Source: Gorsachius magnificus (taxonomy: Eukaryota; Chordata; Aves; Pelecaniformes; Ardeidae). From it: DNA of 64,000 nucleotides. The notes below the pieces were generated by a model. That model was not told the origin of the DNA. It saw nothing but the letters and a program-made list of their open reading frames with translations, and did not search any database. This document shows positions 3,001 to 62,061 of the stretch, piece by piece. Position numbers and translations under genes: made by a program. The number at the start of each line of letters is the position of its first letter. Positions within the stretch are counted from its first letter, which is position 1. The stretch lies in the NCBI GenBank assembly GCA_034008185.1, contig CM067087.1, positions 44,224,590 through 44,288,589 of the forward strand. Reading direction: 5' to 3'.

Positions 3001-3900
3001 AATAAGATTGTTTCAGAAATGAAGGACGATCCTTTCAAAATCTCACGCCGGGGAAGTGAGTGTTTCTCTGCGCTGTAGGACTGGTGACAATTGACAATTG
3101 AGTGGATTAAGGAGAATAACGAGCGTCTCTTCTCGTGTTGTTCTGCTACCCTGCTCTCTAGCTTCTTCAAGGCCCTCGCTCTGGGTGTCTATTATATACT
3201 TCATTGATAGAAGACTGTATGAATTTGTCCTCTAGGTAAACACATTTCTGTTTTAAAGGGTGGTGAATTGCTCCAAGATACAAGTAAATGATCAAAATGT
3301 GCTATCGGCTCCAGGTGTAATTTTTGGCTTATTGATTTTGTCTGTGGTTAGCTACAGTATGTTTAAAACCAGACAAGTGAGGCAATGGAAAACAGGGAAA
3401 TATCCTACAGTGGCATGGGCTGGCCAGACGATGCAACAGTTTTTTCTGCTCTAAATCCGGGTCTTGTACAAGTTTACATTAAAAGGGAGACTTCATTTAA
3501 TGTAAGTAGCCAGGATACAATGCACAGCTTCAGAATAAAACGGCAGAAATACAGTATTAACTATAGGTATTCAGTGTTAAGGCTCCTGAGATGCTGTTTG
3601 ACTAGGTTATTCTTCTTCTAAATTTAAATACACAGTAGTACTTTTTGAAAATCACTTGTACAGGCATGCTATTTCTCTTTGAGTAATAATGATTTACCAC
3701 CTTTCATTTTATCTTTTGAGGGCCCAGGATAGGAGCATTACCACACTGAAACTAAATCGTATTTCTTAGATCCTATTTCATTCTCTTTAGCAGCATTTGA
3801 CAGGAGAACTACGGAATACTCGTACTTCCTTAGGAGAATATTATAAAACTTAAGTTATGAGGCACATTTTAATATCTTCAGTCACATGTGCTCAAAGCAG

Positions 3901-4088
3901 GCATAAGCAAAATATTAACTAATATAATATATAAGGGAAGTGTTGGTATTTACTGTGTAGCAAGGACTTAGGATCATTTTATGGAGATTTCTAGGCATAA
4001 GCAAAGTATTAACTAATATAATATATAAGGGAAGTGTTGGTATTTACTGTGTAGCAAGGACTTAGGATCATTTTATGGAGATTTCTAG
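3901..4088. repeat. Recent 94-bp tandem duplication (two copies)
   Basis: Copies at 3901-3994 and 3995-4088 begin gcataagcaaa and end atttctag. By eye they differ at one base only (a at 3912, g at 4006). The near identity implies a recent local duplication. The unit is AT-rich and carries no recognised element. Confidence 0.95.
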
Positions 4089-8702: not shown

Positions 8703-8843
8703 GATCATAGAATCATAGAATGTTCTGGATTGGAAGGGACCCCTAGAGGTCACCCAGCCCAACCCCCCTGCAGGGAGCAGGGGCACCTTTAACCAGATCA
8801 GGTTGCTCACAGCCCCGTCCAACCTGGCCTTGAATGTTTCCGG
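8703..8843 (-). mobile_element. CR1 LINE 3'-end fragment
   Basis: On the + strand it begins with the reversed CR1 terminal octamers (atcatagaatcatagaa). It continues as the reverse complement of the last part of CR1 ORF2 and the 3' tail; read on the minus strand, residues resembling FKARLDGAVSNLIW are visible. The element is heavily 5'-truncated, as is usual for CR1, and its left boundary is approximate. It lies antisense to MEGF6. Confidence 0.85.
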
Positions 8844-10371
8844 GAATGTTTCCTGGTGACGTCTGACCTGATCCTGTATGGAGCCAGCACGGGTCCAGCA
8901 GAGGTGTACACTAGGGCAGGTTTTGGGAGTTGTCACCAGAAAATATTTTACTAAAACCCCTGTAATTTGCAGTGGGAAGGTGAATGGTGGCCTATACTGG
9001 CACCATGGCTGGCTACTAGGTAAAAAGGCCAGTTGCTAAAACAATTTCCATTAATAATTTTGGGTTGTCTAAAACTCCCAAATAATTGCCTTAGCTTTAT
9101 GTTATATAGATGATTGCCTATTAAGCTAAACTATTAATTTCCTCCTCTCTGATCTTTGAACCTGTGGTCTTTTGCTCTAATGGTGGTGTAGTAACCAGGT
9201 TTTGGTGTTATGTGTGTTGGTCTCTATTCACACCTTTCCCACATTTAAAAAAAAAAGTGCAGGAGTATCAGCTCTTTTTGCTGTTGGTTAAAGTTCATAA
9301 TGTGGGATACCCTGGAGAACAGGTATAATAAATATTTAGTAGAATTCAGCCTTTTAAGCTTCTAGGTGGGCCAATTGGTACAGTGTACATAGAAAAAGTA
9401 AAATTCACAACTTAAGTATCCTGTAACTGAAGATCAGCTTGATGGCCTCACTGCATCAGTTCCTTCACTGGAAAGCTTCCCGGCCAACTTTCAGGATTTT
9501 GGGATGGTGTGGTGGTGTTTTTTTTAATGCAGGGACATGTGTGCATTGAACGCATCCCATGTGATGAAGATGATTGCCGCCTTCTCTAGAAAGGTTCTCC
9601 AGTTGTTAAAATTCCACCATTGCCATCAGTAACGGCAGTGTGGCATCTGAGATACCAGAGTCTTCGCCTTTTCCTTTGAACATGAAATCGCTGCAATCTC
9701 TCAGACAACGCTAGGTGGTAACTGTTGGCAACAGCTACGATGTTAGGAGCGACGTATGTTTCTGGCTTGATTTTCAGAACCATCCATAACATTATACTAC
9801 ATGTACTCCGCTCATATATCACACTTTCCTTTTGTGCGTCAGAATGAATTTGGCTGTCTCTTCCATGCAAAAAAGTAATTAGCCTGGGTTGAATGTGAGG
9901 AATTTATTTTTTGATTGGAACAGAAGGGTGAAATTCCAAATGTGGAAACCTGAGCTGTGAACCGGCATCGACCTACGGCCCTGGCACCGCCGCTCTCCTG
10001 CATAGATGCTGGCACTTGGGGGGGAGGTGTGCATATAGCAAGAAAGGTCTTGGTTTTAAATAGTGCTCAATCCAGTCTGGAGTAAGTTCGGGCCAGGCTG
10101 TTCAGCCTTGGATTCTTCTGACATACGTTGTACAACTGGTTTTCCATGTGCTGAAAAGCCAGCAGCACTTGGTTTGAAGAGGTTTGGTTAAATTGGATGC
10201 TCTGAGTGGTCTGTAAGAGTGAGCTAAAGATCAAGGTAAACATATTTATTGATTTATTTCCTCAGTCTTCTGAAAACAGGACTCGGACTCCAAACAGCAC
10301 ACGTGTCTGTGGAATATACTTGTCTTTGCCTAAGTTACGTGCGCTGCATAGAAGTGCCGGGTAGATACATC

Positions 10372-22613: not shown

Positions 22614-22736
22614 ATGTAAATGAGTGCACCACTGAGAACGGTGGCTGTCACGACCAGTGCTGTAATACCATCGGCAGCTACCACTGCAAATGTCCAGCTG
22701 GCCAGAAACTGGAGGAGGATGGAAAATCATGTGGAG
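22614..22736 (+). CDS. MEGF6: MEGF6 exon A: calcium-binding EGF-like domain
   Basis: This is a 123-bp exon in phase 1-1. The acceptor is ttcttcccacag (AG at 22612-22613) and the donor is gtaata from 22737. It encodes one EGF-like repeat that begins [12 protein letters not shown], the D-x-N/D-E-C opening of calcium-binding EGF modules, and contains the [10 protein letters not shown] core. Such modules are extracellular, held by three disulfides (C1-C3, C2-C4, C5-C6), and give MEGF6 its secreted rod-like form. The oddity is a seventh cysteine directly after C3 (HDQCCNT), where Val is usual, so one cysteine would lack its normal partner. As I recall human MEGF6, only one DVDEC-type repeat precedes the AINSC repeat; here there are two (A and B), so A may be extra. 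Assignment to MEGF6 rests on strand, phase and the downstream exons. Confidence 0.88.
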
Positions 22737-43546: not shown

Positions 43547-43669
43547 ACGTGGACGAGTGTGCGGTGGTGAACGGTGGCTGCCAGCAAGGCTGCGTCAACA
43601 CACACGGCTCCTTCCACTGCCAGTGCCGGGCAGGACACAGGCTCCATGCTGATGAGCGCACTTGCATAG
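43547..43669 (+). CDS. MEGF6: MEGF6 exon B: calcium-binding EGF-like domain
   Basis: This is a 123-bp exon in phase 1-1. The acceptor is ccttctccag (AG at 43545-43546) and the donor is gtaagt from 43670. It encodes an EGF repeat opening [12 protein letters not shown], with six correctly spaced cysteines and the [11 protein letters not shown] core. The calcium-binding signature (D-x-D-E-C plus the Asn and the aromatic residue between C3 and C4) is complete. It ends TCI with a split codon that joins exon C to give TCI-AVNPC, paralleling the human TCL-AINSC junction as I recall it. This fixes the exon as the one directly before exon C. No lesions are visible. Confidence 0.93.
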
Positions 43670-50818: not shown

Positions 50819-50886
50819 CTGTCAATCCCTGCAGCGTTACCAAGGGGGGCTGCGAGCAGGAGTGCGTTCAGCTCGGGGGAGACCAC
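50819..50886 (+). CDS. MEGF6: MEGF6 exon C, 5' half: EGF-like domain cut by CR1
   Basis: The acceptor is tttcctcagctccag (AG at 50817-50818), and the exon enters in phase 1 to read [16 protein letters not shown] then VQLGGDH. This carries the first three of six EGF cysteines and matches the human repeat beginning AINSC, including the unusual VQL after C3. After His the frame meets TGA at 50887-50889, the first codon of inserted CR1 sequence. Read as genomic DNA, the protein would therefore stop in the middle of this EGF repeat. The alternative acceptor AG at 50811-50812 would add six bases and keep frame. Confidence 0.88.
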
Positions 50887-51791
50887 TGAGCACCAAGCTG
50901 AGTGGTGCGGTTGACACACCAGAAGGACGGGATGTCATCCAGAGAGACCTGGACAGGCTGGAGAGGTGGGCCTGTGTGAAGCTCATGAGGTTCAACAAGG
51001 CCAAGTGCAAGGTCCTGCCCCTGGGTCGGGGTGACCCCCAGTATCAATACAGGCTGGGGGAAGAAAGGATGGAGAGCAGCCCTGCCGAGAGGGACTTGGG
51101 GGTGCTGGTGGATGAAAAGCTGGACATGAGCCGGCAATGTGCGCTGGCGGCCCAGAAGGCCAACTGTACTCTGGGCTGCATCAGGAGAAGCGTGGCCAGC
51201 AGGTCGAGGGAGGTGATTGTGCCCCTCTACTCTGCTCTGGTGAGACCTCCCCTGGAGACCTGCATCCAGCTCTGGAGCCCTCAGCACAAGAAGGACATGG
51301 ACCTGTTGGAGCGGGTCCAGAGGAGGGCTACTAAAATGATCCGAGGGGCTACTAAAATGATCCGAGGGCTGGAGCCCCTCTGCTCTGAGGCCAGGCTGGG
51401 AGAGTTGGGGGTGTTCAGCCTGGAGCAGAGGAGGCTGCGGGCAGAGCTGAGTGCGGCCGCTCAGGGCTTAAAAGGGGCCCATAGGAAAGGTGGGGACAAG
51501 CTTTTTAGTAGGGCCAGCTGGGACAGGACAAGGGGGGATGGCTTTAAACTAAAACAGGGTAGGTTTAGACTGGATCTAAGGAAGAAATTCTTTCCAGTGA
51601 GGGTGGTGAAACCCTGGCAGGGGTTGCCCAGAGAGGGGGTGGAGGCCCCATCCCTGGGACCATTCCAGGCCAGGTTGGCCGGGGCTGTGAGCAACCTGAT
51701 GTGGTTCAAGGTGTCCCTGCTCCTGCAGGGGGGTTGGGCTGGGTGGCCTCTGGGGGTCCCTTCCAGCCCAAAACATTCTGTGATTCTATGA
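50887..51791 (+). mobile_element. CR1 LINE inserted inside MEGF6 exon C
   Basis: About 905 bp, in the same direction as the gene. It begins inside the reverse-transcriptase region (caccaagctgagtggtgcgg, giving [14 protein letters not shown]). An open frame then runs to its own stop at 51789-51791, with motifs [42 protein letters not shown] and [17 protein letters not shown]. The 3' end is attctgtgattctatga, the expected CR1 terminal octamers. There is no poly-A and no obvious target-site duplication, which is normal for CR1. The uninterrupted frame of about 300 codons points to a young insertion. The breakpoints are uncertain by a few bases because of flanking matches. A 21-bp in-frame duplication lies inside at about 51326-51367. 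Confidence 0.95.
51326..51367 (+). repeat. 21-bp in-frame tandem duplication within CR1
   Basis: The unit ggctactaaaatgatccgagg occurs twice with a 21-bp offset, so the translated frame repeats seven residues ([14 protein letters not shown]). The frame is preserved. It may mark a CR1 subfamily or be private to this copy. Confidence 0.92.
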
Positions 51792-51849
51792 TACAAGTGC
51801 CGGTGCCAGCCGGGCTACCAGCTGAAGAGGGATGCCAAATCCTGTGAAG
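51792..51849 (+). CDS. MEGF6: MEGF6 exon C, 3' half: rest of the EGF-like domain
   Basis: Directly after the CR1 tail the sequence resumes as YKCRCQPGYQLKRDAKSCE, giving EGF cysteines 4 to 6. It ends in phase 1 at a good donor (gtaagg from 51850). Together with 50819-50886 this makes 126 bp or 42 codons, the same length and cysteine pattern as the human repeat as I recall it. The insertion therefore neither deleted nor duplicated exon bases by this reckoning. The splice donor is intact. Because the inserted length is not a multiple of three and begins with a stop, this half cannot be translated in frame from the first half unless the insert is removed. Confidence 0.88.
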
Positions 51850-56490: not shown

Positions 56491-56613
56491 TGATAGACCC
56501 CTGCACAAGTGGGAATGGAGGATGCTCACAAATCTGTCAAAATGAGCGAGGAATTGCAAAATGCGAGTGCCATCCGGGGCGTTTTCTTTCTGCAGACAAA
56601 AAGTCCTGTTTAG
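56491..56613 (+). CDS. MEGF6: MEGF6 exon D: EGF-like domain with abnormal splice donor
   Basis: The acceptor is ttggtttcag (AG at 56489-56490), with a weak pyrimidine tract. The exon reads V-IDPCTSGNGGC, then SQICQNERGIAKCEC, then HPGRFLSADKKSCL. All six EGF cysteines are present, and GIAKCEC mirrors the human GLARCEC. The length to the expected end is 123 bp, phase 1-1. The expected GT at 56614-56615 is CT (tgtttag|ctaaga), while the rest of the donor (taag) looks normal, as if the first intron base changed from G to C. Without splicing, the frame continues 13 codons to TAA at 56652-56654. A GC donor one base earlier would shift the frame. The exon body looks conserved, so the lesion is probably recent, or it is a base-calling error. 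Confidence 0.87.
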
Positions 56614-59218
56614 CTAAGAAACTCTGGACTACTTATTGGGAGGAAAGGTGTTAATCAGTGCTCTGGGTTACTGAGGTTTGAATGGAAAGGGATACGTTAT
56701 ACAAATCTATGTATGCATTTTGAAACAGCGGTTCTCTCTGTGATATTTATGTCAGCCGACGGTCTTGAAGGACCATTTTAGAAATGAGAATTCCTCTGTG
56801 ATCTCTTCAATCATGCTTTCTAGCAACTGGATTTGTAGATGCTGTAGTGTTATTCCAGTAGGGTCCCTTTAAAATAATGACCCAGATACAGCTCCTGGAA
56901 AATTGGTTCAAGTAACACTCTGAACCAGGTCACTGATAACCTATTTAGAATTCAAAGGGCTTTTTAGCTGGAGAACTGTTTCCATATTAATAGAGAAACT
57001 ACTGTGAAGGAAGTAATCATGAAGTCTAAGGTTTCCAAAGAGAGGAGCTTAAAAAGTTGAATCCCAAAGTCCTGTATTTAGTCTGGGATTTATGAAAGGA
57101 TCTGAAGCATTTCTGATCCCAAATGTGGGGGAATTAGAGACCAAAATACCCACCTTTCTCTTTCAATATGATGCTTGGAAGCTAGATAGTTTATCAGTTT
57201 TATGAAGCGCAAAGCACCTGTGGACTTCATGGTGCACAGATTTGTACCAGCCTTGTCAGGATCAGGGTGTGTATTCAGGCACTAATTTTAAACTCCTCCT
57301 TTTGACAACTTGGCCAAAATTTTGCCCAGACTTACTTTGTTGTCTTATCTATACAGAGTACTGGGTGCTTTGCAAAATACTTACTTCCTACTCAAAGTAT
57401 TTTACTCGGTTGTGTGGAAGCCCTTCTGCAAGTAGCATTGCACCCCTCAGTGATCCCCCTCTCTTACTGGGATTACTCACGGGTAAGGTTACTGAAAAAC
57501 CGGTGTCTTCAAGTAGCGTAGATGCTTCACTGATTATTAATAGATGGAAACAGCAGTGGGTTTAATACCAGGTTTAGCATGTTACTTGTTTCATCTCGGA
57601 TGCATGTTGACCATTCTGCTAATTTAGGTATAAACTAAAGCATTAGGTAACTCGCAATGTTATGGAACAAATTTTCTTCCTGACCTCATGGCAACAGTCT
57701 TTTGAATGATTAAGCATCAGGTCTTCACCATGGATATGCAATTATTGTTTTTTCTCCTAGAAATTATTCCACATCTTTTGCAGAATTCAAGCTTTGACTC
57801 TTTGGAAACCGAGCTAGAAGGAGAGAGAGGACAACAGCTTTAGCTGTTAGCTGTACTGACAAGATAGGGAGAAACACATGTGGGATGGTGGCTGTGGTCA
57901 GTTTTACAACTTTTCTATTTGAAAAAGCAGAAAAGGAGAAAAGAACATTTACAGCATTTGCCAACATACTCGCAAAGCGACAATTAATTACAGAAAAAAG
58001 AGAAATAACCAATTTTATTCTGAACAGCAGCTACTCGCATTGCTGCTTCAGAGAAGCTGTCATTTATCCTGAAATTTTCATGAGCTGGTGTGTGGTGTTT
58101 GCACTGCCTGGGGCCTCTTTTTGCAAGTGGGCTGATTGCATTCATAAAGCTCCTTGTGCTCAAGTACAAGGGGCTATGAGTACGGCGCTGGTTACAGCAC
58201 GTATGGAGGGGAAAAAAAAAAACCCAACCTGGTAGAAAGTGATTTGCTGTGGTAAAAGGTGCGGAGCTGCACACAGGACTGTTCTTTCCTGACCCAGGAT
58301 CGTGGCGATGAATAATCTGTATTTCACAAGCAAAATGTCAGAACAAGAGAAGGAGCAGAAGGTCGGTCAGGGGTTTGCCGTGTGTAAGGTAAAGCCAGGC
58401 TTTGCAAGGAGGCTGGTGTTTTCTGCAGCTGTGCTCCACAGCAGCAGTATTTAGTGTAAGCTTTTTGTTGTTTTTTTTCCCAATTATTATTCCTTAAAAA
58501 TATTATTATGCTCTTCCACTAAGTTTTTAGGAAGATGGATGCCTTTGGTGACATTTAACTCCAGACTACAGACTATTGAGTTTAAGGCTGAGACGGCTTG
58601 ACAGAGGACTGGGTGAAGAACAGTCTCCCCACCTACAGCTCTTCACCTTCTTCCTTTTCTTACAGGGGGGGTGAAACTCTTTGGATTAGGGTAGGTGCCT
58701 CCCTGCTGGACTTCTGTGGAAGCAGCTGCAGGGTTCAGGGATGTGACAGAGATCTGTCTGCATTGTACCTGCTGAAACCCAGCCACTGCTTAATCCAAAT
58801 CATTTGACATTCAGAAAATAATCAGCTGTTTCCTGCTCCATTAATTTAAATATAATGGCCCTGAGGACCTAGTGATAATTTTAGGGTACGGGCAGGTAGG
58901 ACTTTCTTCCAAGTTCTTCATTCAACTTCTTTTGCCTTTGCTCTTTTTACAGGAATAATAAGCAAGTTGCTTTGGCTGATATGGTAAATACAATATTTGA
59001 GGTTCAAGGTCTACGGTGTTTAGAAAAAAAGAGTGTTTTGGAGAATAAAGTTGTGAGTTCAGTGTTCCTGGATTCATCAGATGCTGTCATTTGTAGACTA
59101 ACATCAGGATGCTCTTTTCAGTGGATGTTTGGAAATGCAGCCCTGTACGCATAGAGCAATATTATTTTTTTATTTTAATACCCATGTGAATGTCTTTGCC
59201 TTTCTCTCTGCTTCGTAG
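56614..59218 (+). other. MEGF6: MEGF6 intron between exons D and E (about 2.6 kb)
   Basis: The intron starts with the non-canonical ctaaga described for exon D and ends in a good acceptor (tctctctgcttcgtag). No repeat family or RNA gene was recognised in it. Confidence 0.8.
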
Positions 59219-59341
59219 ACGTTGATGAGTGTGCAGAAGGGAGAGCCAGGTGTGCTCATCGTTGTGTGAACACTCCAGGATCCTTCACCTGCGTCTGTAA
59301 TCCCGGCTTCGAGCTGGGGGCTGATGGAAAGCAGTGCTACC
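59219..59341 (+). CDS. MEGF6: MEGF6 exon E: calcium-binding EGF-like domain
   Basis: This is a 123-bp exon in phase 1-1. The acceptor is ctgcttcgtag (AG at 59217-59218) and the donor is gtaagt from 59342. It encodes [16 protein letters not shown] followed by [11 protein letters not shown] and [14 protein letters not shown]. Six cysteines and the complete calcium-binding signature are present. The QCY ending plus a split Arg codon shared with exon F reproduces the human QCYR-IEMEIV junction as I recall it. No lesions are visible. If exons C and D were skipped, exon B would join here in frame (the G of B plus AC gives Asp), so E could still be used. Confidence 0.95.
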
Positions 59342-61923: not shown

Positions 61924-62061
61924 GCATCGAAATGGAAATTGTCGATAGCTGCCAGGACAACAACGGTGGCTGCTCTCATCACTGCGAGCACACGACTGCG
62001 GGGCCGCGCTGCTCCTGCGACAACGGCTATCGCCTCGATTTTGATGGCAAAACGTGCGCAG
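61924..62061 (+). CDS. MEGF6: MEGF6 exon F: EGF-like domain with IEMEIV linker
   Basis: This is a 138-bp exon in phase 1-1. The acceptor is tttctctgcaag (AG at 61922-61923) and the donor is gtaatt from 62062. It begins with the linker R-IEMEIVDSC, which is nearly identical to human MEGF6 as I recall it and is the strongest single identifier in the window. It continues QDNNGGCSHHC, EHTTAGPRCSC and DNGYRLDFDGKTC. Six cysteines are present. The first cysteine is preceded by DS, not D-E, so this is not a classic calcium-binding module. No lesions are visible. The next expected exon was not found before the window ends. Confidence 0.95.

Follow-up and report, generated by a model that had tools for sequence, protein, structure and literature searches.

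The closest described systems for the locus analyzed here are the CR1 insertions of bird genomes, the sister genes EGFEM1 and MEGF6, and LINE-1 insertions at a human coding exon. Nearly all amniote CR1s carry an octamer microsatellite at the 3' end, according to an extract of one study (PMC8665684). When LINE-1 elements have inserted into MET exon 14 or next to it, the exon appears to be skipped in frame as a result, for which some cases have RNA support, as described in part of a second report (PMC12934576), and human EGFEM1P is, by its name in an excerpt of a third (PMC10097643), a pseudogene. A literature query that combined CR1 retrotransposon, insertion and coding exon returned no match; looser avian-genome wording did match. 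Here we describe a CR1 insertion that splits a coding EGF exon in Gorsachius magnificus. We analyzed a stretch of 64,000 nt (contig CM067087.1, positions 44,224,590 to 44,288,589, forward strand), hereafter the window, in which six EGF exons (e0 to e5) lie on the plus strand together with the following features:

22614 to 22736, plus strand: EGF exon e0, 123 nt, phase 1-1, intact; located by tblastn with songbird, lizard and owl proteins; acceptor CACAG, donor GGAG/GTAATA
43547 to 43669, plus strand: EGF exon e1, 123 nt, phase 1-1, intact; donor ATAG/GTAAGT
50819 to 50886, plus strand: 5' part of EGF exon e2, running up to GGA GAC CAC
50887 to 51791, plus strand (sense): CR1 LINE, 5'-truncated, 905 nt, comprising the end of ORF2 and a 3' end with ATTCTGTG/ATTCTATG octamers
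51325 to 51366, plus strand: exact 21-bp tandem duplication, in frame, inside the CR1, adding 7 codons
51729 to 51849, plus strand: candidate hybrid exon, 121 nt, from a CR1 acceptor CTGCAG/GGG (CTGCTCCTGCAG/GGG; score 6.3) to the e2 donor (score 7.5)
51792 to 51849, plus strand: 3' part of EGF exon e2, starting TAC AAG TGC; donor GAAG/GTAAGG
56491 to 56613, plus strand: EGF exon e3, 123 nt, open; donor site 56614-56615 reads CT, not GT
59219 to 59341, plus strand: EGF exon e4, 123 nt, intact; donor TACC/GTAAGT
61924 to 62061, plus strand: EGF exon e5, 138 nt, intact; donor GCAG/GTAATT

The interrupted exon (50819-51849, 1031 nt) consists of 68 nt of EGF exon, the 905-nt insert and 58 nt that complete the EGF domain. 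The initial annotation placed a CR1 inside a coding EGF exon, and the borders bear this out: once the insert (50887-51791) is taken out, the flanks rejoin to 126 nt, 42 codons and six cysteines, and the joined product matches the Pfam family FXa_inhibition (E = 3.9e-10). When the joint was slid by up to 30 nt and only 42-residue products were retained, the original joint and the one a single base to its right gave the best match to the corresponding owl exon (34 of 42 residues), so the position of the e2/CR1 border is fixed within one base. The empty site is clean, e2 having been split with neither loss nor duplication of bases. No target-site duplication is present at the CR1 borders, which have only a 1-nt T in common; CR1 copies often have no such duplication or a very short one. 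The CR1 opens with TGA when read in the host frame, and its length leaves a remainder of 2 on division by three, both as initially annotated. A second in-frame TGA lies at the 3' border of the CR1, directly before the frame re-enters e2. So exact a split of a 42-codon domain is not a product of chance. CR1 is a high-copy element, and an assembler could in principle have joined a copy from elsewhere into the exon; yet a chimeric join gives no reason for exon halves that meet without a base lost or gained and for a CR1 that ends at its natural 3' octamers, and we regard an assembly error as highly improbable.

The insert is 5'-truncated, its 905 nt containing the end of ORF2 only, and its 3' end reads ATTCTGTGATTCTATGA, a run of terminal octamers. 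A protein search with its open frame brings up bird reverse transcriptases by annotation, which we take to be CR1 proteins, 6845 of the 7999 candidates scored reaching E ≤ 0.001; the details given here come from the best 120 of the 6845 matches. Among the matches listed, the frame is colinear with the bird enzymes, up to codons 3-272, and is 69-79% identical to the 40 that rank highest by identity. None of the names of these listed proteins contains "CR1"; we named the insert from its 3' octamers, whose letters we presume to be those of the CR1 octamer, and from general background on the family. The seven codons added by the tandem duplication correspond to an exact 7-codon gap in 117 of the 119 listed relatives that span the site, the other two having gaps of 9 and 12 codons. 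Residue 273 of the insert frame is Trp, whereas several of the listed relatives end at codon 272. A second CR1 copy is present in the window (8705-8848, minus strand; 88.9% identity over 144 columns). It also has TGG where related ORF2 proteins end, possibly a subfamily mark. Searches with the CR1 frame returned no match in PDB and no family in Pfam, an Rfam search over the window found nothing, and neither AATAAA nor ATTAAA occurs in the insert as a poly-A signal.

The host gene had initially been identified as MEGF6, an assignment that the comparison with related proteins does not support. Taken together, e1, e3, e4 and e5 are 92% identical to an owl protein (P0131; 161 columns) and 83-86% identical to three songbird proteins, whereas the six MEGF6 rows from birds and mammals, a second owl protein (P0198) among them, reach only 63-64%. 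In a tree of 18 rows and 168 columns that included the window, the window stands apart from MEGF6 (support 95/97) and groups with P0131, songbirds, a lizard, fishes and a vole protein named EGFEM1; within this group it joins the three songbirds as their sister, with weak support (83/76). In a second tree, computed from the region from e5 on and with the window left out, EGFEM1 and MEGF6 are split with support of 100/100. The vole EGFEM1 falls on the window's side in both trees, each time on a long branch. The EGFEM1-clade rows were hand-picked among the 120 listed matches from each of two protein searches; Prochilodus was left out of the 18-row tree, and its e2 was read by eye. By these trees the host gene is, most likely, orthologous to EGFEM1, a paralogue of MEGF6. 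Direct identity to the vole protein, a fast-evolving rodent row, counts against this, being only 63% (126 columns) and not above the 63-64% to MEGF6; it is the trees that carry the assignment. Database labels also say otherwise, as the owl protein P0131 ("Multiple EGF like domains 6") and the songbird proteins P0178 and P0197 carry the MEGF6 name. The EMI domain, expected before the EGF array, has no credible match within the window, which does not contain the later EGFEM1 exons either, and the gene appears to start upstream of the window. A 94-bp tandem duplication (3899-4088, 98% matches) is found upstream of the EGF exons.

The exon had also been described as conserved, which is true of one clade and only partly of the other. 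All seven MEGF6-clade rows contain e2, as do six of the 11 other EGFEM1-clade species (the owl and five fishes), but it is absent from the predicted EGFEM1-clade proteins of the remaining five, namely Malurus, Serinus, Cyanoderma, Podarcis and Microtus; the Microtus protein is without e1 as well. These absences were read from predicted protein models. In four of the five, the joint fits the exon borders, and in Serinus it is irregular and two residues short (RSCLDPC). Because e2 is absent from the models of these five species, its loss looks tolerable. EGF7 is also missing from songbird and lizard models (P0178, P0197, P0230), so that a common annotation template, as well as real shrinkage of the array, is a possible cause of the songbird and lizard gaps. 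Compared with the owl, e2 differs at 8 of 42 sites and the other exons at 13 of 161, a weak difference (p = 0.048).

The array carries a second lesion besides the CR1, one that the initial annotation did not mention, as it did not mention the TGA at the 3' border or the 21-bp duplication. The donor region of e3 reads TTTAG/CTAAGA, the GT having been lost, and these two are the only lesions among the six exons seen: e0, e1, e3, e4 and e5 (630 nt) contain neither a stop nor a frameshift. In the owl gene model, too, this joint is irregular (SADKK followed by CAEGR), and the e3 donor defect may for this reason be older and common to both birds.

Consequences for splicing were assessed with scores from approximate splice matrices, on which the real sites of the array range from +1.7 to +7.5 (five donors) and from +1.2 to +7.1 (six acceptors). 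The interrupted e2 keeps good splice sites of its own (acceptor 4.1, donor 7.5). It is symmetric (phase 1-1), and skipping it therefore keeps the frame from e1 to e3, removes exactly one EGF domain and creates the joint RTCIVIDPC, which is also annotated in the songbirds Malurus and Cyanoderma. Skipping of both e2 and e3 joins e1 to e4, again in frame. Removal of the CR1 as an intron was considered and rejected: only nine site pairs keep the frame, and the best of them (donor -1.2, acceptor -8.8) compares poorly with the real sites. Within the exon, we found no acceptor that leads e1 in frame and free of stops to the e2 donor. The candidate hybrid exon, of normal exon size, would use an acceptor inside the CR1, and its pair of sites (6.3 and 7.5) scores above that of e2 itself; its inclusion would shift the frame, and translation from the beginning of e1 would end after 80 residues. 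The second CR1 copy (8705-8848) carries the same CTGCAGGGG motif as the acceptor at 51729. Exons internal to the CR1 can be formed in frame by 177 site pairs, all weak, with a best total of 3.3. The idea that skipping of the whole exon is the sole frame-keeping outcome was dropped in view of these pairs and of the strong frameshifting hybrid exon, and both lower the odds of exon skipping and of a trimmed array and raise those of gene loss.

We propose the following course of events. A CR1 LINE, 5'-truncated and in sense orientation, retrotransposed into e2 of a gene that the trees identify as probable EGFEM1. A transcript that retains the whole exon would stop at TGA, the first CR1 codon, and its message would presumably decay. 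Exon definition is generally poor when a long exon is flanked by long introns. The interrupted e2, with its 1031 nt and flanking introns of 7.1 and 4.6 kb, should be such a case, so that a part of the message most likely lacks it. Because e3 has lost its GT donor, the message that survives would most likely join e1 to e4 in frame, minus two EGF modules. The reading we prefer, to which we give a probability of about 0.42, is thus one of CR1 insertion and e2 skipping, in which relaxed constraint lets a dispensable stretch of the EGF array erode and aberrant splicing costs some of the output. The good splice sites of e2, the hybrid exon, and two lesions in six exons, which would fit gene loss too, all count against skipping.

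A close competitor is the loss of EGFEM1, complete or under way, in this bird or on the allele seen here, with no useful protein left and with human EGFEM1P as a parallel; we put the odds of a dying gene and of a shortened EGF array about level. The CR1 stop and the lost e3 donor, falling together within six exons, and the good CR1 acceptor that yields the 121-nt frameshifting exon are what gene loss would predict, but the 630 nt of the other exons are free of stops and frameshifts, albeit over few bases, and e1, e3, e4 and e5 are still 92% identical to the owl. In addition, both damaged exons are symmetric, and the frame survives their removal. Null allele, exon skipping and relaxed constraint, all put forward at the outset, each stay in play as outcomes. 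A broader version of array shortening, which we think rather unlikely, is that the EGF array of EGFEM1 has been trimmed independently in several vertebrates and that the stop-bracketed CR1 and the lost e3 donor, which would drop two modules in frame, have caught this process in the act.

The insertion was initially called young, which is plausible: the ORF2 part is open, without a frameshift. In a decay simulation with unbiased substitution and an indel/substitution ratio of 0.1 (2000 runs), the frame stayed free of stops and frameshifts at divergences of 3%, 4%, 5% and 8% in 6.6%, 2.1%, 0.75% and 0.05% of runs, respectively; with a ratio of 0.05 (500 runs), the corresponding values were 15.6%, 7.8%, 4% and 1.2%. 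Such low survival of an open frame favors a recent insertion. Two observations point the other way. Of 153 reverse transcriptase positions with a conservation of 90% or more across 79 relatives among the matches listed, 21 are changed in the copy, and in a leave-one-out comparison it is more divergent at conserved positions than 77 of the 79 (median 2.9%). CpG is depleted, at an observed/expected ratio of 0.21 in the CR1 against 0.40 in the window. The open frame thus speaks for youth and the changed residues against it, and we assign the insertion no date. Almost all of the conserved-site changes run from A/T to G/C (17.5 to 1, with 3.5 neutral), a bias unexpected for decay in a neighborhood of 44% GC; the changes therefore perhaps come from the source lineage, or perhaps reflect biased conversion or base-call error. 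The second copy, however, covers four of the G/C-ward sites (258, 261, 265 and 268) and has only 268 in common with the insert. The changes at conserved sites of the CR1 (50887-51702) include many A>C and T>G transversions.

The age of the copy bears on two further explanations. The insertion could be polymorphic or the allele of a single individual, the usual e2 of the species being empty, which would be compatible with either a shortened array or a dying gene. This is possible, if doubtful: the open, unshifted ORF2 fits a recent insertion, as does the recent CR1 expansion in several bird orders described in the extract of PMC8665684, whereas many changes at conserved residues would better fit an older, fixed copy. 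The same CR1 insertion might, alternatively, have caused the loss of e2 in songbirds. The tree, with the window as weak sister of three songbirds (83/76), is compatible with this explanation, which we do not favor, as it is improbable that simple decay at the assumed rates would have left ORF2 open over a time on the songbird scale.

The e2 insertion represents a familiar type of event in a clean and somewhat unusual form, instructive and not category-breaking. Coding-exon CR1 insertions that reach a bird assembly are worth recording because selection should remove most disabling ones. If the skip product is made, the locus offers a mechanistic example of a repeat-domain protein losing a module; if it is not, it documents the loss of EGFEM1 in a bird, in parallel to human EGFEM1P.

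Compared with the bird CR1 insertions described in the extract of PMC8665684, the copy shares the 5' truncation inside ORF2, sense reverse transcriptase homology and the 3' octamer end, but it sits within a coding exon, carries a 21-bp duplication absent from its relatives and reads Trp at the point where several relatives end. The host gene resembles EGFEM1 (the vole protein and the human pseudogene EGFEM1P) in the order of its EGF domains, its symmetric exons and its place in two trees, and differs in an e2 broken by a CR1, a lost e3 donor and an identity of only 63% to the vole protein. With MEGF6, its paralogue, it shares the plan of the EGF array, but identity is 63-64%, the two genes separate in both trees, and e2 is present throughout the seven MEGF6-clade rows. 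As in the LINE-1/MET exon 14 cases, so far as the available part of PMC12934576 describes them, a LINE lies in or beside a coding exon whose skipping gives an in-frame product; unlike the present insertion, those are human and apparently somatic and involve another LINE, and skipping has RNA support there whereas here it is predicted from sequence.
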